NCBI GenBank assembly: GCA_025351795.1 | Contig: JANXVG010000069.1 | Coordinates: 1-37,571 of the forward strand | From: Salinibacterium sp. | GTDB lineage: Bacteria > Actinomycetota > Actinomycetes > Actinomycetales > Microbacteriaceae | DNA length: 37,571 nt | Reading direction: 5' to 3' | Shown: in pieces, positions 1 to 10,262 of the stretch | How the letters are laid out: the number at the start of each line of letters is the position of its first letter | How positions within the stretch are numbered: position 1 is the stretch's first letter | The notes under the pieces: generated by a model | The model's database searches: none | What the model saw: the letters and a program-made list of their open reading frames with translations, nothing else | Told to the model about the DNA's origin: nothing | Made by a program: the position numbers and the translations under genes

Positions 1-1077
1 CACGCCAAACGTGACGCCCGCACCGACCTGACCGGCAGGCGCGCCCTGCTGACCGGTGGCCGCGCGAAAATTGGCATGTACATCGCGCTGCGACTCTTGC
101 GCGACGGCGCACACACGACCATCACGACGCGGTTTCCGCGGGATGCGGTGCGTCGTTTCACGAGCCTGCCTGACTCCGCGGAGTGGATCCACCGCCTCCG
201 CGTGGTGGGCATCGACTTGCGCGACCCCACCCAGGTGATCGGACTCGCGGACTCCGTTGCAGCGGCCGGACCGCTCGACATCCTGATCAACAACGCGACA
301 CAGACCGTGCGCCGCTCCCCCGGTGCGTACCAACCACTGGTGGATGCCGAGCTCGCTCCGCTGCCAGATGGCCCGCTCCCCGAGCTCGTCACTTTCGGCC
401 ACACGAACGACGCCCACCCGCTCGCGCTTGCCAGGTCGGTGACCGCGCACCCAATCCTCGCGGCCGCGGGTTCAGACGGGCACCGGGCACGCGCGTTAAG
501 CGAGCAGGCAATGGCTGCTGGCTCGTCGTCGTTGGAACGACTCGCCGCAGGCACCGCGATCGACGCGGGTGGTCTGCTCCCCGACCTGCACGACGCAAAC
601 TCGTGGACCCAACACGTGCATGAGGTTGACCCCCTCGAGATGCTTGAGGTGCAGCTCGCTAACACGACGGCTCCGTTCATCCTGATTTCACGGCTGCGGC
701 CGGCGATGGTCGCCTCGACAGCGCGCCGCACGTACATCGTGAATGTGTCTGCGATGGAGGGCGTCTTCGGACGCGGCTACAAGGGGCCTGGGCATCCGCA
801 CACCAACATGGCGAAGGCCGCCGTAAATATGCTCACCCGCACGAGCGCGAGGGAGATGTTCGAGACAGACGGCATTCTCATGACGAGCGTCGATACCGGC
901 TGGATTACGGATGAGCGCCCGCATCCCACCAAAGTGCGTTTGGCAGAGGAGGGCTTCCACGCCCCGCTCGATCTCGTAGACGGCGCAGCTCGGGTGTACG
1001 ACCCCGTGGTGCGCGGCGAGGCAGGCGAAGACGTCTTTGGCGTGTTCCTCAAGGACTACGCACCGAGTTCCTGGTGA
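1..1077 (+). CDS. SDR-family oxidoreductase, 5' end outside window
   Basis: The reading frame is open from the first base, so the gene starts upstream of the window. The nucleotide-binding turn (LLTGGRAKIG) lies at about codons 16-25, before the first internal ATG at 76, so that ATG is not the true start. An NNAT motif (codons 97-100) and the NVSAMEG strand follow the SDR plan. The usual YxxxK active site reads TNMAK (802-816), with Thr in the Tyr position and the Lys kept. I recall this HTNMAK pattern from a distinct SDR subfamily, so it is probably a family trait and not decay. The C-terminal VDTGWI stretch fits the cofactor/substrate region. The substrate is unknown. It overlaps the next gene by four bases (GTGA), suggesting co-translation. 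The SDR fold is secure; a classical dehydrogenase reaction is not. Confidence 0.85.
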   Translation, partial: HAKRDARTDLTGRRALLTGGRAKIGMYIALRLLRDGAHTTITTRFPRDAVRRFTSLPDSAEWIHRLRVVGIDLRDPTQVIGLADSVAAAGPLDILINNATQTVRRSPGAYQPLVDAELAPLPDGPLPELVTFGHTNDAHPLALARSVTAHPILAAAGSDGHRARALSEQAMAAGSSSLERLAAGTAIDAGGLLPDLHDANSWTQHVHEVDPLEMLEVQLANTTAPFILISRLRPAMVASTARRTYIVNVSAMEGVFGRGYKGPGHPHTNMAKAAVNMLTRTSAREMFETDGILMTSVDTGWITDERPHPTKVRLAEEGFHAPLDLVDGAARVYDPVVRGEAGEDVFGVFLKDYAPSSW

Positions 1078-1321: not shown

Positions 1322-1342
1322 GCGCTACGGGTAGCGTAGCGA
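1322..1342. promoter_or_regulatory. putative TetR operator upstream of tetR
   Basis: An imperfect palindrome with half-sites CGCTACGG and GCGTAGCG, centred about 46 bases before the tetR start. It matches 16 of 21 positions of the perfect palindrome at 6251-6271. This suggests that the TetR protein encoded next to it represses its own gene and the divergent lipid operons. Binding itself is inferred. Confidence 0.7.
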
Positions 1343-1377: not shown

Positions 1378-1947
1378 GTGACCGACATTGCGGCAGCGCT
1401 CACCCCACGAGGCCCCAGCATCGACGACCGCATCTTTGCCGCGGCCCTTGAATTGCTGCGTGAGCGCGGGCCGGTCGCCGTAAACATGGAGTCGGTTGCC
1501 GCCGCTGCCGGAGTTGCCAAGACCACGATTTACCGTCGTTTCGAAAATCGCGAGTCCCTGTTGAGCGCCGTCGTTAATGCCGCGACGACCGCCGTGTCGA
1601 TCACGCCGGAGACCACCGCATACGAAACTCTGCATTGGTTTCTCGCGGATGCCCGAGACACGATCGACAACATCGTCGGTCACGGAGCTATCGCTGCGAT
1701 CCTGATCAACGACGATCCAGTATTCACTGCCCACCTGGTCGAAATGCTGCGCGTTCGCAGTAGACCCATCCGCAATCACCTCCGCACTCGGGTTACCGCC
1801 GGAGAATTACGCGCAGACGTAGACATTGAACTCGTTCTGAGCCTCCTGCTGGGAACGTTTGTGGCCGAGTCAATTCGCGGTGAGACGAACCGCGACGGTT
1901 GGGCCGACGACGTGCTGCGGCTGCTGTGGCCGGCACTCGCCGCATGA
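1378..1947 (+). CDS. TetR/AcrR-family transcriptional regulator
   Basis: A 189-residue repressor-type protein. The N-terminal DNA-binding domain covers about residues 14-60, with the helix-turn-helix around residues 35-58 (MESVAAAAGVAKTTIYRRF), the classical TetR signature. The C-terminal helical part is the ligand/dimer domain. The GTG start fits the family length. The stop overlaps the start of the diacylglycerol kinase gene by four bases (ATGA), so the two form an operon. A palindrome just upstream (1322-1342) is nearly repeated between the divergent lipid operons (6251-6271). This TetR is therefore the likely regulator of the whole 1378-10262 block. By analogy with other TetR regulators of lipid genes the ligand could be an acyl-CoA, but that is inference. 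Confidence 0.93.
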   Translation: MTDIAAALTPRGPSIDDRIFAAALELLRERGPVAVNMESVAAAAGVAKTTIYRRFENRESLLSAVVNAATTAVSITPETTAYETLHWFLADARDTIDNIVGHGAIAAILINDDPVFTAHLVEMLRVRSRPIRNHLRTRVTAGELRADVDIELVLSLLLGTFVAESIRGETNRDGWADDVLRLLWPALAA

Positions 1948-2915
1948 CGGCCGACCGCCGGCAGGCCGCTGTCGTTGTCAATCCGGCCCGGGTGAACCTG
2001 GCGCGGCTGCGGAAGGCCATCGCCGCCGCGGAGACGAAGGCCGGATGGCGCGAGTCGTTCTGGCTCGAGACATCCGTCGAGCACAGCGCCGAAGCGTCTG
2101 TGCGGGCGGCAATCGAGCAGGGCGTCTCACTCGTGATCGCTGCGGGAGGAGATGGCACCGTGCGTGAGGTCGGCGCCGCGATGCGGGGTCAGGATGTGCC
2201 GTTCGCGCTCATTCCCGGCGGCACAGCGAACCTCCTGGCCCGCAATCTGGGACTGCCATTGGGCGACACTGCCGCAGCCGCGATAATCGCGTTCGAGGGC
2301 GCAGACCGCCCGATCGACCTCGGTTGGTTGCACTATCGACTCGAGAACGGCAGCGAGGGCGCGCTGCCGTACTTCGTCATGGCGGGTTTCGGGCTCGACG
2401 CCGATATGGTGGCCGGCACTGACCCGCAGCTAAAACGACGGTTCGGTTGGCTCGCGTACGTCGGCCCCATCCTCGGCTCGCTCGCGCGCCGCACCGGCCA
2501 CGAGACCACCTATTCACTCGGCGACGATGCGAAGCGATCTGGCCGCCTCCATTCGCTCATCGTCGGCAATGCGGGCACTGTGACGGCCAACCTGCGCTTG
2601 CTTCCAGAAGCTGTGCTCGATGACGGGATGCTCGATGTGCTCGCCATCCGGTCGATGCGACCGCGCGACCGGGCCACCTTCATCCGCTGGCTCGGCCAGT
2701 CATACAGTTCGTCAAAAGTGATGCCCGCTCTGCGCGTGAACCCGGATGACACGGGTGGCGCCCTGTACTACGCGCAGACCACCGGTGTTACCGCAACCCT
2801 CGACCGCGCCGCGACGTTCCAAGCCGATGGCGATGCTCTGGGTTCCGTCGTCTGGGCGCAATTCAGCATCGAGCCGGGTGCTGTCACCGTGCGCGTACCA
2901 GCTGCGAGACCCTAA
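1944..2915 (+). CDS. diacylglycerol kinase family (YegS/DagK-like) lipid kinase
   Basis: A 323-residue lipid kinase of the DAGK catalytic family, which phosphorylates diacylglycerol or related lipid alcohols with ATP at the inner face of the membrane. The family hallmarks are present: VVNP near residues 11-14, the nucleotide-binding GGDGT at residues 68-72 followed by VREV, and the IPGGTANLLARNLGLP stretch. The ATG at 1944 overlaps the tetR stop (ATGA); an in-frame ATG at 1899 lies inside tetR and is less likely. In this context the substrate may be a diacyl- or alkyl-acyl-glycerol that is returned to the phospholipid pool. That is inference, since family members are too alike to assign substrate by eye. 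It converges with the alkyl-DHAP synthase gene across a strong hairpin (2984-3027). Confidence 0.9.
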   Translation: MTADRRQAAVVVNPARVNLARLRKAIAAAETKAGWRESFWLETSVEHSAEASVRAAIEQGVSLVIAAGGDGTVREVGAAMRGQDVPFALIPGGTANLLARNLGLPLGDTAAAAIIAFEGADRPIDLGWLHYRLENGSEGALPYFVMAGFGLDADMVAGTDPQLKRRFGWLAYVGPILGSLARRTGHETTYSLGDDAKRSGRLHSLIVGNAGTVTANLRLLPEAVLDDGMLDVLAIRSMRPRDRATFIRWLGQSYSSSKVMPALRVNPDDTGGALYYAQTTGVTATLDRAATFQADGDALGSVVWAQFSIEPGAVTVRVPAARP

Positions 2916-2983
2916 GCCGCTCGTGCCGCGGGTAGCTCTAACGCACGTAGCGGTCGATCCCTGCCCAGTCGCCGATCCCCGAC

Positions 2984-3027
2984 CAGACTCCCACTTGTCA
3001 GGACACGTCCTGATAAGTGGGAGTCTG
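2984..3027. terminator. 21-bp hairpin between convergent genes (terminator or REP-like palindrome)
   Basis: Bases 2984-3004 pair with 3007-3027 over 21 positions with a single G-T wobble and only two unpaired central bases, so it is an almost perfect palindrome. It lies between the 3' ends of the diacylglycerol kinase (+) and alkyl-DHAP synthase (-) genes, which suits a bidirectional terminator. There is no T-run on either side. The length and perfection also suit a repeated extragenic palindrome or inverted terminal sequence of a mobile element. Confidence 0.6.
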
Positions 3028-3075
3028 CAGCACTACGGGCGGTGGCCAGCACTGCGGTGCGCCGGAGGCGACTTC

Positions 3076-4746
3076 CTACCCCGCGAAAATCTTCCCTGGG
3101 TTGAAGTTGTTGCCAGGGTCGGCCGCGCCCACGAGGCCGCGCACGAGACCGACGCCCTCGGCAGAGATGTCCTGTTCGAGCCACGCGGCGTGTTCGAGTC
3201 CGACACCGTGGTGGTGCGAGATCGTGCCGTCACTATCGATGAAGGCCTGCTGAATCGCGCTCTTCACGGTGTTGTATTCGGCGATCGGGTCGCTGCCAAA
3301 GACGAACGCGAACGTGAAGTACAGGCAGGCACCCGAGTGATATGAGTGCGACATGTGCGACATGATCCAGCCCTTGATACCGATCTCGTCGTACGCCTTT
3401 TGGGCGGCCGCGTAGACGTTCTCGTGAAGAGAAACGAGCTTCGACCACGGTGCAGCAGTCTCCGAAACGTCGCCAGCAGCACCCATGTCCAGTAGGAAGT
3501 CGCGCAGATATGGCGTGTCGAATTTCTTCTGGTCATAGAGGATTCCGGGACCCTTGCCCACCCCCATGCCGCCGTGCTTCTTCACGATCGCGTCTACCAT
3601 CGACTTCTGTCGTGTGGCGTGCGCCGGTGCGCCCTCAAATCCAATGAATGACAGGCAAATGTCGTCGAGATTCCATCCTTTCGACTTCATGAGACCAGGC
3701 AGAACCGTGCCAGCCAAAAACTTGTCGAAGCCCTTGCGATCCTTGCTGGTCGCGAGCGAAAAACCTGTCTCGCGGGCGTCCGACACCCGGGTGATCGATG
3801 GCGCGGCATCCGATTCGCTGATGGCCTGCATGGCCGCGATGCCAGCCTTCCAGTTCGGAAAGAAGTACGCATAGACGTCGCGCTTTTCGGGGATGCGGTG
3901 CACCTGCACAGTGACCTCGGTGATCACGCCAAGTCGACCCTCACTGCCGAGAATCATTTCGCGCACGCTTGGACCGCTGGATGTCGACGGTAGCGGGCGC
4001 AGTACAAGCACACCGCCCGGGCGCACGACGCGCAGTCCACGCGCGATATCCGCGATGTCACCATACTTGTCAGATTGCATGCCCGACGACCGGGTCGCGA
4101 CCCAACCACCGACTGTCGAATGGGTAAAGCTGTCTGGGAAGTGACCGATAGTCCACCCCCGCGCGTTGAGCTGCGCCTCAAGGTCAGGGCCTTGAGAGCC
4201 TGCCTGAATGCGAGCGAGACCCGAGTCGGCGTCGATGTCGAGCACGGTGCGCAGGCGACCGAGATCGAGCGACACAATGGTGCGCTTCTCGGCCGGGATC
4301 GGTTCAAGGCTGCCAGCAATATTGCTGCCGCCACCGAACGGGATGATGACCGCGTTGGCGGCGATGGCCGCATCCACAATGCCCTGAACTTCGGACTCAT
4401 CAGCCGGGTAGACCACGACATCTGGGCTGCGCAGGATCGAATTGCTTCGGATGCGAACCAAGTCGCGCAGACTCTTGCCGTAGGTATGGATGACGCGCAC
4501 CATGTCATCCGTCGTCACATTGCCCGCTCCGACCACTGCGACCAGCGCCGTCGTGAACGCGGCTGTGGCGTTGCTCTTCGGAACCTTAAGGTCGGCGAAC
4601 GACGGTTCGCCCGCACGCTTCGCCGTGCCGAGATCGAGGCCAACGGCGTACTCAACGAATGGGGCGAATCCTGGCTTGTCTTCGTGGTGGAATCCCACAC
4701 CGTCGACTCCCCACCCCCACCACTTCATGTGCTTGACGTCAGTCAT
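3076..4746 (-). CDS. agpS: FAD-dependent alkyl-dihydroxyacetonephosphate synthase
   Basis: A 556-residue FAD enzyme of the vanillyl-alcohol-oxidase fold, closely resembling the mycobacterial alkyl-DHAP synthase type (N-terminal MKWWGWG). Alkyl-DHAP synthases replace the acyl chain of acyl-DHAP with a fatty alcohol, creating the ether bond of ether lipids. The FAD-binding PCMH domain lies at about residues 110-280 (PFGGGSNIAGS, then TVGGWVATRSSGMQSDKYGDI). The C-terminal cap ends with HHHGVG at residues 511-516, matching the His loop needed for catalysis in the eukaryotic enzyme, and a terminal DPGNNFNPGKIF. It is the last gene of a three-gene minus-strand operon; its start overlaps the acyltransferase stop by four bases. 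The neighbouring fatty acyl-CoA reductase would supply the alcohol. D-lactate dehydrogenase-like oxidases share the fold, but the HHH loop and the context favour AgpS. Confidence 0.88.
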   Translation of the reverse strand: MTDVKHMKWWGWGVDGVGFHHEDKPGFAPFVEYAVGLDLGTAKRAGEPSFADLKVPKSNATAAFTTALVAVVGAGNVTTDDMVRVIHTYGKSLRDLVRIRSNSILRSPDVVVYPADESEVQGIVDAAIAANAVIIPFGGGSNIAGSLEPIPAEKRTIVSLDLGRLRTVLDIDADSGLARIQAGSQGPDLEAQLNARGWTIGHFPDSFTHSTVGGWVATRSSGMQSDKYGDIADIARGLRVVRPGGVLVLRPLPSTSSGPSVREMILGSEGRLGVITEVTVQVHRIPEKRDVYAYFFPNWKAGIAAMQAISESDAAPSITRVSDARETGFSLATSKDRKGFDKFLAGTVLPGLMKSKGWNLDDICLSFIGFEGAPAHATRQKSMVDAIVKKHGGMGVGKGPGILYDQKKFDTPYLRDFLLDMGAAGDVSETAAPWSKLVSLHENVYAAAQKAYDEIGIKGWIMSHMSHSYHSGACLYFTFAFVFGSDPIAEYNTVKSAIQQAFIDSDGTISHHHGVGLEHAAWLEQDISAEGVGLVRGLVGAADPGNNFNPGKIFAG

Positions 4747-5432
4747 GCCGATTCCTTTCCTGAGTGCGCCAGCGAGACGGATGCGTGAAGCCGGCGCACG
4801 GCATCACCAAGTCGAGTGGAGAAGTTCTCGGCGCTCTCGCCGTCGTTCGCGAACATCGGCTCACCGAAGACTACGGCCACCGGCAGTCGTCCGCGCTTTG
4901 GCCAGTTGACGCCACGCGGCATGGCTAGGTTAGCCCCGACAATTGCAATCGGTACGCAGGGAACCCGTGTCGCAATCGACAGTGCAGCCGCCCCCGATTT
5001 AAATCGACCGATCTCGCCATGCTTCGACCTGCCGCCCTCGGGGAAGATCAGGAGCGGCACGCGGCGCTCGAGTAGGGCGCGCGACGAGCCCGAACGTTTT
5101 CCTTCTGAATTGCGTTCGATCGCGAACGCGTTGAAAAACAGAGTTGTGAGCCATTTGCGCCAACGCACGTCAAAGAAGTAGTCCGCTGCTGCACCAGCGG
5201 CGAGATACCGTGCATGTGGCCGCGGAAGCGCACCGATCACGAGAGGCGCATCGAGGTGACTCGAATGATTAGCGATAGCGATAAATGGTCGTTTGAGGTC
5301 AACGAGCTCATGGGTACCATGCACCGTCACGCGAGTGAGCCGCCAGACGAGAGGTTTTAGCATGCCGCGTTGCGCGACGAAGCGCACTCCCGCCACGGTC
5401 GGCGACGTAAACCTGTCGGTCTTCTGGGTCAT
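4743..5432 (-). CDS. 1-acylglycerol-3-phosphate acyltransferase (PlsC-like)
   Basis: A 229-residue acyltransferase of the PlsC/LPLAT family, which moves an acyl chain from acyl-CoA or acyl-ACP to a lysophospholipid precursor at the membrane. The catalytic H(x)4D motif is NHSSHLD (His56, Asp61) and the substrate-binding FPEGGRS motif is at 130-136. The ATG at 5432 was chosen because it overlaps the SDR stop (ATGA) and gives the usual family length; the frame is open further upstream but runs inside the SDR gene. The stop overlaps the start of agpS. In an ether-lipid pathway it could acylate sn-2 of 1-alkyl-glycerol-3-phosphate, or acylate DHAP to provide the AgpS substrate. The sequence does not decide which. 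Confidence 0.9.
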   Translation of the reverse strand: MTQKTDRFTSPTVAGVRFVAQRGMLKPLVWRLTRVTVHGTHELVDLKRPFIAIANHSSHLDAPLVIGALPRPHARYLAAGAAADYFFDVRWRKWLTTLFFNAFAIERNSEGKRSGSSRALLERRVPLLIFPEGGRSKHGEIGRFKSGAAALSIATRVPCVPIAIVGANLAMPRGVNWPKRGRLPVAVVFGEPMFANDGESAENFSTRLGDAVRRLHASVSLAHSGKESA

Positions 5433-6238
5433 AAGTGTTCGTCGGCCTTCACAGCTGATTGTTTGGAGCGCTCGTCGTTCCGGCTTGATGAGATGCCGGC
5501 AGAGATCCACCGGATGGTGCGGTGCGGAAGATGCCGAGCAAACCACCCGAGCACTCGGTACCGAACAGTGGGTATGCACACCACTCGACCACGCCGCGCG
5601 TCGCGCAGGGCGAGGCGAGCGACAACATCCGGGTCCGTCCATAACCAGGTGGGCAGCGAGCTTCTTTGCACCCCCGCCCTCTCATGCCATTCGGTGCGCA
5701 CCCACCCCGGCAACACCACCGTGACGGTCACTGCCGTGCCACGAAGTTCAACGGCAAGGCCTTGGCTATATGAGGTGACCCATGCCTTGATCGCAGCGTA
5801 CGACCCGGTCGCGAGAAAGCTTTGCAGGCTGGAAACGTTGATAATCGTGCCACTACGCTTGCTCATCGAGCGACCGGCCGCCGCACCGAGCACGAGCACG
5901 GCACGGCACATGACATCAAAAGCTCGTTCGTGTTGCGCAGTGTCTGAATCGATGAGTGCGGTGTGCAGACCGAACCCGGCGTTGTTCACGAGGAGGTCGA
6001 TGGGGCGATCAACATCTTCGAGACGAGCGGCGACCCGTGCGACATCGGCCCGGTTCGCGAGGTCAGCAGAGATCGTCTCTACCTGTATGCCTGTAACGGA
6101 ATGTAGCTCAGCGGCGACCGCATCGAGGCGCACGTGGTCACGTGCGACCAACACCAGATTGTGCCCGCTGGCCGCCAGCTGCCGAGCAAATGCGGCACCA
6201 ATACCGGATGTGCCGCCCGTGATGAGAGCCGTTGCCAT
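5429..6238 (-). CDS. short-chain dehydrogenase, candidate alkyl/acyl-DHAP reductase
   Basis: A 269-residue classical SDR. The NAD(P)-binding TGGTSGIG is at residues 7-14, NNAG at 85-88, catalytic Ser in NVSS (about 136-137), and Tyr147/Lys151 in YAAIK. A basic/hydrophobic stretch near residues 210-240 (RVLGWFARHLPHRTIRWI) could associate with membrane. It is the first gene of an operon with the acyltransferase and agpS, each overlapping the next by four bases. Mammalian ether-lipid synthesis uses an SDR to reduce alkyl-DHAP to alkyl-glycerol-3-phosphate, so this position makes it the natural candidate for that step. That is inference; SDR substrates cannot be read from sequence. The promoter lies in the operator-containing gap 6239-6321. 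Confidence 0.9.
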   Translation of the reverse strand: MATALITGGTSGIGAAFARQLAASGHNLVLVARDHVRLDAVAAELHSVTGIQVETISADLANRADVARVAARLEDVDRPIDLLVNNAGFGLHTALIDSDTAQHERAFDVMCRAVLVLGAAAGRSMSKRSGTIINVSSLQSFLATGSYAAIKAWVTSYSQGLAVELRGTAVTVTVVLPGWVRTEWHERAGVQRSSLPTWLWTDPDVVARLALRDARRGRVVCIPTVRYRVLGWFARHLPHRTIRWISAGISSSRNDERSKQSAVKADEHL

Positions 6239-6250
6239 GCTGGATACAAT

Positions 6251-6271
6251 ACGCTACGGTCACCGTAGCGT
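6251..6271. promoter_or_regulatory. perfect palindromic operator in divergent lipid promoter
   Basis: A perfect inverted repeat with 10-base arms around one central base; the arms begin ACGCTACGGT and end ACCGTAGCGT. It sits in the 83-base gap between the divergent SDR-acyltransferase-agpS operon and the ferritin-like/reductase operon, so one bound repressor could control both. The arms match the palindrome before tetR (1322-1342). Confidence 0.85.
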
Positions 6272-6321
6272 CAGCCGGGTAGACTTCTCTTGACTCGCCC
6301 TGCTCTCTGGAGGTATTACGG

Positions 6322-7128
6322 ATGCCTGACCATCACGAGGCGTCCGTGGACATCATGAGATTCCCGGCCCCCGACTTCGACGTACGAGAGTTCGCCCGCC
6401 AAGCGGCAGGCTCCCACCGCGACAAGCTCCACCTCGAGAGCTATCGTCAGGCTCCACTCAGCGCAGACATTCTGCGCATCCTTCGTTATATGCAAATGGT
6501 GGAACGTGCGACGATGACGCACCTGCGCAGTGTGCTGGTCACCGCAACGCACAAAGATGCGCGCATCACCGCGTTCCTCACCACGTGGGCATTCGAGAAG
6601 TACTGGATCGCCGATGCGCTCGAGCAGATCCAGCTCGCGCACCAGCCAGTGGGCACGGATGTCGACCGCGCGCCGTTCACGACCCCGGCCGAGCGCACGA
6701 TCCGCGAGTCCATCGTGGCGAACATCGTCGGTGGGCCGATGATCGCAGTTCACATGGCCCTCGGTACCGTCGACCAGTGGCTCACGGTCGCCGCATACCG
6801 GTGCATTTCGGCACTCGCGGGCCACGCGCAGCTCTCAGCGACCATCACCACGATCGTCAGCCTCAAAGAACGCCAGCTTGAGTTCTTCGAGCCACAGGCC
6901 AGATACCGACTCACCGAATCGAAGCAGGCTCGTCGTATTGCCCGACGTCGCCTTGCGAAGACCCCGTGGCCGATCGGCGCGAAGGCAGAGCCGGCAAGCG
7001 AAACCCGCTTCTTCTTTGATCGTCTTTTCGTGCCGGCTCGAGCGCTGGTAGCCGAATTGGATGCCCGAATCGATACCCTCCCCGGCCAATCCGGGCTCTC
7101 ACTCATTCGAAAGGCCGCCCGGCTGTGA
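6322..7128 (+). CDS. ferritin-like protein with degenerate di-iron site
   Basis: A 268-residue all-helical protein, clearly paralogous to the product of 9468-10262 (shared RYM, the LVT..HK..xxxAF segment, IAVHM, and the VAAY helix). When the two are aligned by eye, ligands expected of a ferritin-like di-iron site are mostly gone here. E77 of the paralogue is K93, H80 is I96, E141 is Q152 and H174 is L186; only E61 and E183 remain. It is therefore unlikely to bind two irons by itself and may be a structural or regulatory partner of the active paralogue. A good ribosome site (GGAGG) precedes the ATG. It is the first gene of the operon, and the stop overlaps the reductase start by four bases (GTGA). 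The exact role is unknown. Confidence 0.82.
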   Translation: MPDHHEASVDIMRFPAPDFDVREFARQAAGSHRDKLHLESYRQAPLSADILRILRYMQMVERATMTHLRSVLVTATHKDARITAFLTTWAFEKYWIADALEQIQLAHQPVGTDVDRAPFTTPAERTIRESIVANIVGGPMIAVHMALGTVDQWLTVAAYRCISALAGHAQLSATITTIVSLKERQLEFFEPQARYRLTESKQARRIARRRLAKTPWPIGAKAEPASETRFFFDRLFVPARALVAELDARIDTLPGQSGLSLIRKAARL

Positions 7129-9449
7129 CTCTCCCCCGCACGACCACCACGCGCGTAGCGACAGCCCGCTCACTCACCAACGAGCACGTGTTTCTCACCG
7201 GCGGAACCGGTTTCGTGGGTCAGGCCATTCTCGAGCGATTGTTGTCGTCGCATCCAGACACCCGAATCACGGTGTTGGTGCGCGGTAAGGGCAGTCTGAG
7301 CGGCGAAGCACGACTCTCCAACATGCTGCGCAAACCCGTCTTCAAGCGGTGGATTGATTCGGTCGGTGACGACGAGGCTCATCGCCAGTTTGCCACGCGA
7401 GTCACGGCTCACGATGGCAGCCTCGGTAACGTCGGCACCCTACCTGCAGATATCGATGTGGTGCTGCACAGCGCGTCGACCGTGTCATTCGATCCACCGA
7501 TCGACGAAGCCTTCGACACCAACGTGGGTGGGGCATATGGCATCTACGGGGCGCTGTTAGCCAGCGGTAGCGACCCCCACGTCGTACACATTTCGACGGC
7601 GTACGTGGGCGGTATTCGTAAGGGGATCGTGCCAGAAGCGTCGCTCACCCACACTGTCGATTGGCGCGCCGAGTACGACGCCGCGAAGTCTGCCCGCGAG
7701 CGCGTCGAGCTGGAATCGCGTCAGCCTGAAGCGCTGCGCCGCCAACTTGCCAAAGCACGAGCGCGTCATGGCAAGACCGGACCGCAGGCCGTTGCGCAGT
7801 TCGCAGAGGCGGCCCGCGCAGACTGGGTGCATGAGCGTCTCGTCGACTTCGGGCGCACCCGTGCCGAGAGCCTCGGCTGGACAGACGTGTACACGCTCAC
7901 CAAGGCGTTCGCCGAGCGCGCGGCCGAGGAACTGTGGGCACAGGCTGGCCACCGATTGTCTATCGTGCGCCCGTCGATCATCGAGAGCGCACTGCACCAC
8001 CCGTTCCCTGGATGGATCGATGGTTTCAAGGTCGCCGATCCGCTGATCATCGCCTATGGTCGAGGCCAGCTGCCCGACTTCCCTGGCCTACCCGACTCCG
8101 TGTTGGACATTATCCCCGTTGACTTCGTGGTGAATGCGGCACTCGCTGTCGCCGCGCGACCCGCCCAGCCCAACGAGCCCAGATACTTTCACGTGAGCTC
8201 GGGAGCATCAAACCCCCTTCCGTTTCACCGCATGTACGAGAACGTCAATTCCTACTTCACTGCGAACCCACTCCCCGACGACAAGGGCGACATCAAGGTT
8301 CCGCTCTGGCGCTTCCCTGGCGGCCAAAAGGTTGAGAACGCCCTTGCCAAGCGCGAACGCCAGGTCGCGCGTGCCGAGCGGGTAATCACGCGACTTCCCA
8401 CGACGCCGCGCACCCGGAGTTGGCTCGACACGGTCACGAGCGGCACGCACGGTCTGCGACAACTGCGAGCATTCACTGAGCTGTACCGCGCGTACGTGCA
8501 GACCGAAATCATCTTCGATGACACGAATACGCGTGCACTCTTTCTCTCCCTGCCCACGCGAGTGCAGGAGTCGGAGGGATTCGACGTGACCGAGATCGAC
8601 TGGGAGCAGTACTTCCAGAACATCCATTTTCCGGCAGTCACCACACTCACACGAGCGTTCGGCAAGCGCCCATCGGCGAAGACAAAGTCCACCAAAGTTC
8701 TTCCTGTTCGCTCGGATGTCGTGGCGATCTTCGACCTCGAGGGCACGGTTCTCGAATCTAACCTCGTCAAGCAGTACCTCATGTTGTGGTCGGGAAGCGT
8801 GCCACGCGCTCGGGTGGCTCACGACTTGGCGAACTTCGTCTTCTCGTTGCGCAAGTACATGCGGGCCGAGAAGCGAGACCGCGGCGAGTTCATCCGCACC
8901 TTCATGCGCCGCTATCAGGGCTTCAAGGTCAGCGAGATCGAGCGCCTCGTTCGTGGCAGTTTTGGTCGCGCCATGATGCGCCGCGCTTTGCCGGACGCGC
9001 TGCGTCGCGTTCAGGAGCATCGGGATGCCGGCCACCGCACGATTCTCGTGACGGGCACAATCGACCTCATGGTGCAGCCGTTCCTGCCCTACTTCGATGA
9101 GGTCGTCGCCGGTCGTATGCACGAGCGCGACGGAGTACTTACCGGCTTCCTCGCTGACCCGCCGCTCGTCGACGAAGCACGTGCGGCCTGGCTGCGTCAC
9201 TACGCAGACAAGAACGGTTTCGATCTCGACCATTCCTATGGCTACGGCGACAGCCACGCCGATCTGGTCTGGTTGCAGCTGCTCGGCAATCCGAATGCCG
9301 TGAACCCCGACATCCAGCTCTACCGACACGCGCAGGAAAAGCATTGGAATGTGCTTGACTGGAAGCGCCGGGCAACCGAGAGCCCGCGCCCTGAGAGCTC
9401 CCCACCCGACACCTCGAACATCACGGAAGGAGTCGAGCAGGCCTCCTAG
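7125..9449 (+). CDS. fatty acyl-CoA reductase fused to HAD-IB phosphatase-like domain
   Basis: A 774-residue two-domain protein. Residues about 20-500 form a fatty acyl-CoA reductase (FAR): NAD(P)-binding TGGTGFVG at 25-32, the STAYVGG strand, catalytic Tyr256/Lys260 in YTLTK, and a C-terminal segment including IIFDDTNTRALF. FARs reduce acyl-CoA to fatty aldehyde or fatty alcohol. Residues about 530-750 are a HAD-IB domain: motif I is FDLEGT (nucleophile Asp537), motif II VTGT, motif IV GDSHAD (709 onward). The second acid of motif I is Glu in place of the usual Asp, so phosphatase activity is open to doubt. The GTG start overlaps the upstream stop. Lying next to agpS under a shared operator, it is the likely source of the fatty alcohol for the ether bond. 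The HAD domain's substrate is unknown. Confidence 0.88.
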   Translation: MTLPRTTTTRVATARSLTNEHVFLTGGTGFVGQAILERLLSSHPDTRITVLVRGKGSLSGEARLSNMLRKPVFKRWIDSVGDDEAHRQFATRVTAHDGSLGNVGTLPADIDVVLHSASTVSFDPPIDEAFDTNVGGAYGIYGALLASGSDPHVVHISTAYVGGIRKGIVPEASLTHTVDWRAEYDAAKSARERVELESRQPEALRRQLAKARARHGKTGPQAVAQFAEAARADWVHERLVDFGRTRAESLGWTDVYTLTKAFAERAAEELWAQAGHRLSIVRPSIIESALHHPFPGWIDGFKVADPLIIAYGRGQLPDFPGLPDSVLDIIPVDFVVNAALAVAARPAQPNEPRYFHVSSGASNPLPFHRMYENVNSYFTANPLPDDKGDIKVPLWRFPGGQKVENALAKRERQVARAERVITRLPTTPRTRSWLDTVTSGTHGLRQLRAFTELYRAYVQTEIIFDDTNTRALFLSLPTRVQESEGFDVTEIDWEQYFQNIHFPAVTTLTRAFGKRPSAKTKSTKVLPVRSDVVAIFDLEGTVLESNLVKQYLMLWSGSVPRARVAHDLANFVFSLRKYMRAEKRDRGEFIRTFMRRYQGFKVSEIERLVRGSFGRAMMRRALPDALRRVQEHRDAGHRTILVTGTIDLMVQPFLPYFDEVVAGRMHERDGVLTGFLADPPLVDEARAAWLRHYADKNGFDLDHSYGYGDSHADLVWLQLLGNPNAVNPDIQLYRHAQEKHWNVLDWKRRATESPRPESSPPDTSNITEGVEQAS

Positions 9450-9467
9450 GTCGGCTCGCGTCATCCC

Positions 9468-10262
9468 ATGGCATTTGACATCGACAACTACACCAGCACC
9501 TCGACGAGTGTGGCGTGGGCAGACCTCGACTTCGACGAATTTAAGACACATCCGCTCCCAGAAGCCACCCTCCGTAGTCTGCGGTACATGTGCGATGTCG
9601 AATATCACACGGTCTGCTACCTGCGCGATCTGCTCGTGACTCCGTCACACAAGGAGGCAGACGTCAGCGCGTTCATGACCATGTGGAACCGCGAAGAGTT
9701 CTGGCACGGTGAGGCACTCGCCGCTGTGCTCGGCGCTCACGGTGTAATCGTTGACTTCGATGAGCTCAAGTCCTCGCGCGTGAAGCTCGGCTGGAAGGAT
9801 CGACTCGATCCCATCAAGCAGTCGCTGCTCGGTAACATTATCGGCAAAGACTTCATCGCCGTACACATGATCTGGGGCGCTGCGAACGAGTGGTCGGCCG
9901 TCGCCGCCTACAACCGCCTTGCTGACCTTGAGAAGCACCCAGTGCTCGCTGAACTGCTGCGACGTATCGCGAAGCAAGAGGCCAGACACGTTGCGTTTTA
10001 TGCGACTCAGGCCCGCGAGCGCCTCGCCAAGAGTCGCAAAGCGCAGGTGCTCGCACGCTTCGCGCTTAAAAACGCGTGGGGACCGGTGGGTTCCAGCATC
10101 ATGGATCCCGCGGAAGTTACGCACGTCATGGGCCATATCTTCTCTGGCCAGGAGGGCCTGCGCGAGATTCGCAAGCTCGACGAGCACATCTCGCGAATGC
10201 CCGGCCTCGACGGCCTTACTATCGTCGAGACCTCGATGGCGAAGTACGGAGTTGCCGCCTAG
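9468..10262 (+). CDS. ferritin-like di-iron protein with intact ligand set
   Basis: A 264-residue helical protein with the two-Glu, two-ExxH ligand pattern of ferritin-like di-iron proteins: Glu45, Glu77-x-x-His80, Glu141 and Glu171-x-x-His174. Such proteins include oxygenases, desaturases, aldehyde-deformylating oxygenases and ferritins; the sequence is not close enough to any of these for me to assign a reaction. Its paralogue at 6322 has lost most ligands. It is the last gene of the operon, 18 bases after the acyl-CoA reductase. The context suggests an O2-dependent step on a fatty aldehyde, a fatty alcohol or the ether lipid itself, for example desaturation of the alkyl chain, but this is inference. 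The ribosome site before the ATG is weak. Confidence 0.85.
   Translation: MAFDIDNYTSTSTSVAWADLDFDEFKTHPLPEATLRSLRYMCDVEYHTVCYLRDLLVTPSHKEADVSAFMTMWNREEFWHGEALAAVLGAHGVIVDFDELKSSRVKLGWKDRLDPIKQSLLGNIIGKDFIAVHMIWGAANEWSAVAAYNRLADLEKHPVLAELLRRIAKQEARHVAFYATQARERLAKSRKAQVLARFALKNAWGPVGSSIMDPAEVTHVMGHIFSGQEGLREIRKLDEHISRMPGLDGLTIVETSMAKYGVAA

Follow-up and report, generated by a model that had tools for sequence, protein, structure and literature searches.

An AgpS-type ether-lipid gene cluster of Microbacteriaceae and its ferritin-like protein as a candidate vinyl-ether-forming enzyme

Which enzyme could form the vinyl ether of plasmalogens in an aerobic actinobacterium? The question is raised by a locus in a 37,571-nucleotide stretch of Salinibacterium sp. 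DNA (contig JANXVG010000069.1, here called the window), in which genes for a homologue of the alkyl-dihydroxyacetone phosphate (alkyl-DHAP) synthase AgpS, a PlsC-type acyltransferase, a short-chain dehydrogenase/reductase (SDR), a fatty acyl-CoA reductase (FAR), and two ferritin-like proteins (FLP1 and FLP2) lie together. Branched dimethyl acetals (DMAs), a signature of plasmalogens, recur in species descriptions of aerobic actinobacteria, the accessible portions of which name no gene behind them. We are confident that the window holds an ether-lipid cluster of the AgpS route, and we lean toward a reading in which FLP2, as a soluble di-iron Delta1'-desaturase, makes the vinyl ether in an aerobic AgpS-route plasmalogen pathway. 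Among the papers listed by a literature search, with most subscription journals outside its reach, none tied a ferritin-like protein to vinyl ethers or plasmalogen genes to Microbacteriaceae.

A conserved cluster built around AgpS

The AgpS protein of the window scored 387 bits to the ADPS of Dictyostelium (2uuu) and 290 bits to a second AGPS structure (4bby), versus at most 75 bits to lactate, glycolate, or hydroxyglutarate oxidases (the best D-lactate dehydrogenase reaching 75), which rules out a D-lactate/glycolate oxidase; a D-lactate-type oxidase would have spoken against an earlier, sequence-only reading of this DNA. The HHH catalytic loop pointed out in that reading is present at residues 511 to 513, and its three histidines are kept, together with Arg320, in all 76 called AgpS proteins. 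Tyr469 is kept in 68 of the 76 rows; the eight deviant rows represent seven loci, one strain being counted twice. We take the HHH loop, Arg320, and Tyr469 to be active-site residues of AGPS, the aligned Tyr presumably being catalytic, and the window AgpS has all of them.

Conservation was assessed in a set of 80 named loci out of 175 confirmed in a scan with FLP2, to which all counts "of 80" refer. The gene set recurs in aerobic actinobacteria of soil and water. All six core genes (AgpS, PlsC, SDR, FLP1, FAR, and FLP2) were matched in 70 loci, which belong to Microbacteriaceae, Jiangellaceae, Ruaniaceae, and Streptomyces; window order and strands are kept in 68 of these 70, the exceptions with rearrangements being L052 and L081, and in four loci (L019, L030, L037, and L051) the top match to AgpS is incomplete. 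With AgpS a true relative of AGPS and these genes recurring as a set, the earlier view of them as the steps of glycerol ether lipid synthesis holds up. Among the incomplete loci, two lie on contigs that start inside the module (L017 and L080), three have FLP1-FLP2 only (L032, L048, and L062), and five have FLP2 only (L036, L061, L073, L074, and L083). When AgpS was sought in nine of these 10 genomes (all but that of L080), seven had an orthologue at 64 to 78% identity: L017 is cut off by the end of its contig, L036 belongs to a genome with two FLP2 copies, the other of which (L042) sits in a full module, and in Naasia (L032) and four Jiangella genomes AgpS is kept even though it lies more than 10 kb from FLP2.

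The association extends to whole genomes. We surveyed 219 Microbacteriaceae genomes, evenly drawn with a minimum completeness of 90% asked and including that of Subtercola vilae DB165 (G093). FLP2 was found in 67 (62 to 100% identity) and AgpS in 59 (at least 64% identity; in G134 the orthologue is split in two pieces); both occur in 59, FLP2 alone in 8, and AgpS alone in none (Fisher p = 4e-45, in a test that ignores phylogeny and linkage). A second, FLP1-type match is present in all 67 FLP2 genomes. Ferritin-like genes found mostly without agpS and the reductase would have spoken against the sequence-only reading; they occur mostly with them, by locus (70 of 80 with all six genes) and by genome (59 of 67 FLP2 genomes with AgpS). 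Among the eight genomes with FLP2 alone, G107 has FAR and is, by its coordinates, the source of the contig-edge locus L080. AgpS-like proteins at only 34 to 40% identity, which represent a paralogue widespread in the class, occur in five further genomes of the family, including G141, one of the seven AgpS-less genomes considered below. In genus g78 (seven genomes listed), FLP2 is present only in Microbacterium sp. K24 (G371, L008), with all six genes, in keeping with their acquisition as one unit. The window's own genus (g1; G000, G085, G143, and G188) is patchy, with FLP2 and AgpS in two genomes and neither in the other two.

Across the class (296 genomes), FLP2 at 60% identity or higher was found in 25 genomes and AgpS at 50% or higher in 34, with 13 AgpS genomes having no FLP2. 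FLP2 genomes without AgpS were G083, G141, G305, and G367, and eleven more with FLP2 at 39 to 55% identity also had none. G245 carries a syntenic AgpS-PlsC-SDR/FAR block and G411 an AgpS-PlsC-SDR block, each with no ferritin-like gene there, and in G429, FAR/SDR-PlsC-AgpS lies apart from a second site that holds FLP2 and an FLP1-like gene. The separability of FLP2 from the AgpS core in G245 and G411 accords with a tailoring role on the product of AgpS.

The known aerobic enzyme of vinyl-ether formation, CarF/PEDS1, had been described as missing from the locus, and this extends to the genome level: the CarF family (PF10520) was matched in none of the 219 family genomes, that of the window included, and in none of 14 controls. 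The same search matches 9 of 246 genomes across the phylum, which indicates that it works, and PF10520 is not among the family matches of FLP2. PF09989, presumably a marker of PlsA, was found in 4 of the 14 controls and in a single family genome (G067); since that genome lies outside the module set, the PlsA route was set aside. A PF00487 membrane desaturase is present in 201 of the 219 family genomes (it was not found in module genomes G047, G129, and G211), and this near-universal family, which does not track the module, was likewise set aside as the vinyl-ether enzyme. The nine CarF-family carriers are G539, G585, G634, G635, G665, G684, G694, G723, and G732, eight of them in family f51, outside the family of the module. 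No close module genes were found in the neighborhoods of six of the nine: two of these gave generic hits to SDR and P-type ATPase, and one short contig (L144) gave weak hits to FAR and AgpS.

An intact and a degenerate ferritin-like protein

The sequence-only reading had described one intact di-iron protein in the ferritin-like pair. In FLP2, the ligand set E45, E77xxH80, E141, and E171xxH174 is complete in all 98 sequences, whereas FLP1 has no full set: across 75 sequences the same columns hold Glu, Lys/Arg (75/75), mostly Ile, mostly Glu/Asp/Thr, Lys/Arg (74/75), and His/Gln, and the window FLP1 reads E-K-I-Q-K-Q at the six metal positions. FLP1 returned no Pfam or NCBIfam match and is recognized by its ~32% identity to FLP2.

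AlphaFold2 models had a pLDDT of 87 for both proteins and a pTM of 0.88 for FLP2. Searched with Foldseek against the PDB, the FLP2 model has acyl-ACP desaturases as all of its 15 best matches, many of these entries being one castor protein, with E values of 2e-4 to 4e-3 (three below 0.001) and TM-scores of 0.53 to 0.64; R2-like ligand-binding oxidases and R2 follow. The top 20 structural matches have 12 to 17% identity. Root-mean-square deviations are about 8 to 10 A, values so large that the match is one of helical bundle, not of detail. FLP2 thus combines the acyl-ACP desaturase fold, at moderate TM-scores, with the di-iron ligand pattern. Soluble acyl-ACP desaturases (stearoyl-ACP, DesA2) are the nearest solved folds and share the two ExxH iron motifs, and DesA2 of Mycobacterium tuberculosis is the one natural protein among the FLP2 PDB sequence matches (E = 0.033). 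Unlike them, FLP2 stands in an ether-lipid gene context, and its identity to them is low; it scores 19.7 bits to their family PF03405, below the cut-off of 22.7.

For FLP1, the best model matches are R2-like ligand-binding oxidases (E = 0.006 or worse, none below 0.001), with class Ie R2 lower down, a fold common to the superfamily. Class Ie NrdB replaces metal ligands with lysine, and the likeness of the FLP1 lysines to that class may serve as a lead only. Against seven relatives of the window, comparisons in which dS is near or above 1, FLP1 has a dN/dS of 0.14 to 0.24, FLP2 of 0.05 to 0.08, and AgpS of 0.07 to 0.11; in closer pairs, FLP1 values were 0.04 to 0.12 in four and 0.53 in a fifth. 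Given this purifying selection, the notion of FLP1 as a decaying pseudogene was set aside. FLP1 is missing in Jiangella genomes that have FLP2, which indicates that it is not strictly required. Altogether, FLP1 is probably a noncatalytic partner, a paralogue that would have lost catalysis and been retained as a partner or regulator of FLP2.

A proposed assignment of the vinyl-ether step

In the pathway that we propose, FAR would supply fatty alcohol, the PlsC-type enzyme would provide acyl-DHAP and/or the sn-2 acyl chain, and AgpS would exchange the acyl group for the fatty alcohol to give alkyl-DHAP, which the SDR would reduce to 1-O-alkyl-glycerol-3-phosphate for entry into phospholipid synthesis; in loci that have one, a diacylglycerol kinase (DAGK) may serve in the salvage of alkyl-acylglycerol. 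FLP2 would then use O2 to take hydrogens off C1'-C2' of the alkyl chain and leave a vinyl ether, doing the job of CarF/PEDS1 as a member of another family. The sequence-only reading had offered the intact di-iron protein as the source of an O2-dependent step on the alkyl chain or the aldehyde; the complete iron site of FLP2 sustains the first part of that idea, and the second, which we narrow to Delta1' desaturation, we can only infer.

The logic of such a pathway would be that of animals and myxobacteria, the new element being a candidate desaturase of another family. As far as the accessible part of the published account goes, the same step order as in the animal peroxisomal pathway (FAR1, GNPAT, AGPS, acyl/alkyl-DHAP reductase, AGPAT, and PEDS1/TMEM189) can be assigned here (PMC9131029), with an alcohol source, an acyltransferase, an HHH-loop AgpS, an SDR reductase, and an O2-dependent di-iron step as the matching elements. 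The difference lies in the last of these, for which the animal pathway uses the membrane protein CarF/PEDS1 and the window offers a soluble-looking ferritin-like protein. According to the same partial source, the aerobe Myxococcus xanthus (MXAN_1676 AGPS, MXAN_1675 FAR-acyltransferase, elb operon, and CarF) clusters AGPS, FAR, and acyltransferase as here, and its ElbB is a HAD protein, whereas the window has a HAD domain fused to FAR (PMC9131029). The vinyl ether of Myxococcus is formed by CarF; here, no CarF was found and FLP1/FLP2 are present instead. The anaerobic plasmalogen reductases PlsA/PlsR, which in the available excerpt are described from some other Actinobacteria, lead to the same product class by direct ester reduction with no DHAP route, unlike the window (PMC9702350).

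Reported fatty acid profiles, cited here from the accessible parts of each source, offer a possible phenotype. S. vilae DB165 contains iso-C16:0 DMA (17.0%), anteiso-C15:0 DMA (3.2%), and anteiso-C17:0 DMA (1.9%), and DMAs are also listed for S. frigoramans, S. boreus, and S. lobariae, with none for Frondihabitans (PMC5945732). The S. vilae DB165 locus (L060) has AgpS, PlsC, SDR, FLP1, FAR, and FLP2, and the six genes are also found in S. lobariae (L063), in two S. boreus strains other than the type strain (P27479, L066; P27444, L068), and in Agreia bicolorata (L070). Anteiso-15:0 aldehyde/DMA is reported for Frigoribacterium adelgis and F. faeni (PMC12823222), and two Frigoribacterium metagenome-assembled genomes (L038 and L039) have the six genes, with Tyr469 in AgpS. 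In aerobic Kineococcus rubinsiae, anteiso-C15:0 DMA was named C14:0 2-OH by MIDI, and its authors consider it indicative of plasmalogens (PMC7472656). By the same token, the C14:0 2-OH reported in S. vilae (15.6%; PMC9287328) and in F. faeni (17.0%) and Glaciihabitans tibetensis (4.2%) (PMC7033078) may be DMA, and G. tibetensis carries the six genes (L057). Neither DMA nor C14:0 2-OH is mentioned for Agromyces and Salinibacterium species in the part of PMC10713820 that was available.

We incline, if only just, toward a fuller proposal: that FLP2 is a second, unrelated O2-dependent plasmanyl Delta1'-desaturase which, with AgpS, forms a third plasmalogen route beside CarF and PlsA in aerobic actinobacteria, that this route would explain the branched Subtercola DMAs reported since 2000, that FLP1 is a pseudo-enzyme partner, and that a LarA-like enzyme joined the pathway in Subtercola and Labedella, with AgpS changed along with it. 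If FLP2 does form the vinyl ether, this chemistry arose no fewer than two times, on di-iron, O2-activating proteins from separate families, and its study would be much more tractable with a soluble plasmanyl desaturase than with the membrane enzyme. The cluster in any case offers a testable gene set for branched DMAs in culturable, named strains.

Several observations weigh against this proposal. FLP2 looks soluble, unlike PEDS1, which is a membrane enzyme. Among AgpS proteins, Tyr469 is replaced by Met or Glu in six Subtercola loci and in Labedella (L033), and a LarA-like gene lies between FAR and FLP2 in exactly these seven Tyr469-less loci and in the AgpS-less G305, among 145 loci (L060:7564-9102, L033:7691-9244, and L124:10900-12477; also L059, L063, L066, L068, and L078); that of L060 is a PF09861 match. 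Two explanations offer themselves for Subtercola: a changed mode of action of its altered AgpS, or an alkyl ether supplied by something else. The pathway is thus modified in the very strain that is best linked to the phenotype, which weakens the claim that the Subtercola DMAs arise by way of a normal AgpS; the FLP2 iron site is intact in the Subtercola loci too. DMA amounts are also uneven in the partial accounts at hand: Agreia has at most 4% (PMC5945732), Lacisediminihabitans profunda only trace C14:0 2-OH (PMC7033078), with the module present in L. changchengi (L018), and S. endophyticus, a species whose locus status lies outside our survey, no C14:0 2-OH/DMA (PMC9287328). DMA could, moreover, come from other bound aldehydes rather than from a vinyl-ether lipid. 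The co-occurrence test, as said, leaves phylogeny and linkage aside. Finally, two Agromyces genomes (L048 and L062) have no AgpS, seven family genomes (G032, G063, G083, G102, G141, G202, and G215) have adjoining FLP1 and FLP2 genes and neither an AgpS orthologue nor a FAR (E <= 1e-40), and G305 and G367 have FLP2 and FAR with no AgpS. FLP2 can thus persist without AgpS of the module type. In the FLP2 tree, six AgpS-less sequences occupy two derived spots among module-linked ones, which suggests a secondary change.

A few neighboring genes of these exceptional loci can be added. G305 (L115/L124) has FLP2, FAR, and the LarA-like gene; genes adjoining FAR in L124 resemble larB/C/E (named by eye from the sequence start), and an extra acyltransferase stands beside the LarA-like gene in L060 and L124. 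In the two Agromyces loci (L048:6348-10795 and L062:5276-10795), FLP1-FLP2 adjoin a PadR regulator, an ABC1/UbiB-type kinase, and a PLDc_N/SHOCT membrane protein (families were searched in L048), a setting that hints at another lipid substrate.

It is possible, though we think it doubtful, that the cluster makes ether lipids and that FLP2 carries out a different O2-dependent step, such as mid-chain desaturation or hydroxylation or an AGMO-like cleavage of alkyl-glycerol, any vinyl ether being the work of another enzyme. The closest FLP2 folds are indeed acyl-ACP desaturases, which act mid-chain, and the seven family genomes that pair FLP1 with FLP2 and have neither AgpS nor FAR would allow for a more general lipid substrate. 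However, AgpS orthologues never occur without FLP2 in the family survey (59 of 59), and the obvious alternative enzyme, PF00487, does not track the module (201 of 219). In the available text, Subtercola chains are mostly saturated and branched (PMC5945732); one later report, likewise seen in part, differs on the chains (PMC9287328). DMAs require a vinyl-ether or aldehyde source.

The aldehydes themselves could be the product. FAR would then yield aldehyde or alcohol for fatty-aldehyde or hydrocarbon metabolism, with FLP2 acting like an aldehyde-deformylating oxygenase (ADO) and the DMAs representing free or bound aldehydes. FLP2 is ferritin-like and adjoins FAR, and acid methanolysis converts any aldehyde to a dimethyl acetal. 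This explanation strikes us as improbable: it leaves AgpS-PlsC-SDR in 70 of 80 loci unexplained as well as the retention of FLP2 with AgpS even where the two are not neighbors, and no ADO appears among the FLP2 PDB sequence matches or the best 50 of 322 Foldseek matches, for which reason ADO-type alkane synthesis was set aside. Even less credible is a chance placement of FLP1 and FLP2 as iron-storage or stress ferritins, despite weak matches of FLP2 to Rubrerythrin and Ferritin_2, under the Pfam cut-offs. The six genes stay together in 70 of 80 loci across four lineages from Microbacteriaceae to Streptomyces, and FLP2 has a desaturase-like fold and changes more slowly than AgpS.

Gene layout and possible regulation

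The window is a whole contig (C73) of a 2.5-Mb, 97% complete assembly, and its closest relatives put it in the Microbacteriaceae. Gene calls and family matches bear out the gene list first drawn up for positions 1378 to 10262 (Table 1), with FLP1 and FLP2 flanking the reductase, as had been noted. A minus-strand unit, SDR-PlsC-AgpS, and a plus-strand unit, FLP1-FAR-FLP2, diverge from 6239-6321, and TetR and DAGK form a separate overlapping plus-strand pair past the far end of AgpS. The gene overlaps noted earlier amount to 4 bases in each of four adjacent pairs (TetR/DAGK, AgpS/PlsC, PlsC/SDR, and FLP1/FAR).

Table 1. Coordinates in the window of the genes and sites discussed in the text
Feature	Position	Strand	Basis
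Putative TetR operator, imperfect copy upstream of tetR	1322-1342	.	5/21 mismatches to 6251 site
TetR-family regulator	1378-1947	+	PF00440 1.2e-13
DAGK/YegS-type lipid kinase, accessory	1944-2915	+	PF00781 3.5e-19
AgpS, alkyl-DHAP synthase homologue (flavoprotein)	3076-4746	-	2uuu 387 bits, 4bby 290 bits
HHH loop of AgpS, residues 511-513	3208-3216	-	Conserved 76/76
PlsC-type acyltransferase (putative acyl-DHAP and/or sn-2 acylation)	4743-5432	-	PF01553 6.6e-20
SDR, likely alkyl/acyl-DHAP reductase (role suggested by context)	5429-6238	-	PF00106 5.5e-37
Palindromic operator in divergent promoter	6251-6271	.	21 bases, CGCTACG-N5-CGTAGCG core
FLP1, degenerate ferritin-like paralogue of FLP2	6322-7128	+	Lys/Arg at two metal positions; purifying selection
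FAR, NAD_binding_4 + Sterile-like, fused C-terminal HAD-IB domain	7125-9449	+	PF07993 1.7e-45, PF12710 2.6e-31
FLP2, ferritin-like with intact di-iron site; proposed Delta1' desaturase	9468-10262	+	EEHEEH 98/98; acyl-ACP-desaturase-like model
Six predicted FLP2 iron ligands, span	9600-9989	+	Motif and alignment, not metal-bound structure
FLP2 ligand codons	E45 9600-9602, E77 9696-9698, H80 9705-9707, E141 9888-9890, E171 9978-9980, H174 9987-9989	+	

The cluster had also been called a regulon with a shared operator. A palindrome does lie between the divergent units, with a related site at tetR, but TetR and the operator occur in a minority of relatives. A TetR orthologue (at least 45% identity) is present in 28 of 80 loci, all with an operator somewhere in the locus: in 24 it sits in the SDR/FLP1 gap, and in the remaining four, from Plantibacter, a single site lies at another position, which for the two inspected (L043 and L044) is immediately upstream of TetR. 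The 52 loci without TetR comprise 9 with no SDR/FLP1 gap, 41 with a gap and no site, and 2 with a gap and a site (L019 and L029), whose stretches end before the expected place of TetR. DAGK (at least 40% identity) is found in 10 of 80 loci. TetR and DAGK are outside the conserved core; where TetR is present, it might repress both divergent units through the shared palindrome.

FAR matches a fatty acyl-CoA reductase of solved structure (7eoz, 1.4e-47), and its Sterile domain (PF03015) scores under the Pfam cut-off. Its HAD domain has DxEGT in all but 2 of 69 called relatives, those two having DxERT. The usual HAD motif is DxDGT, and phosphatase activity may therefore be altered. At the contig start, window positions 7 to 237 share 94% identity with the end of another contig of this assembly (C35), which may represent a between-strain overlap of assembly ends.

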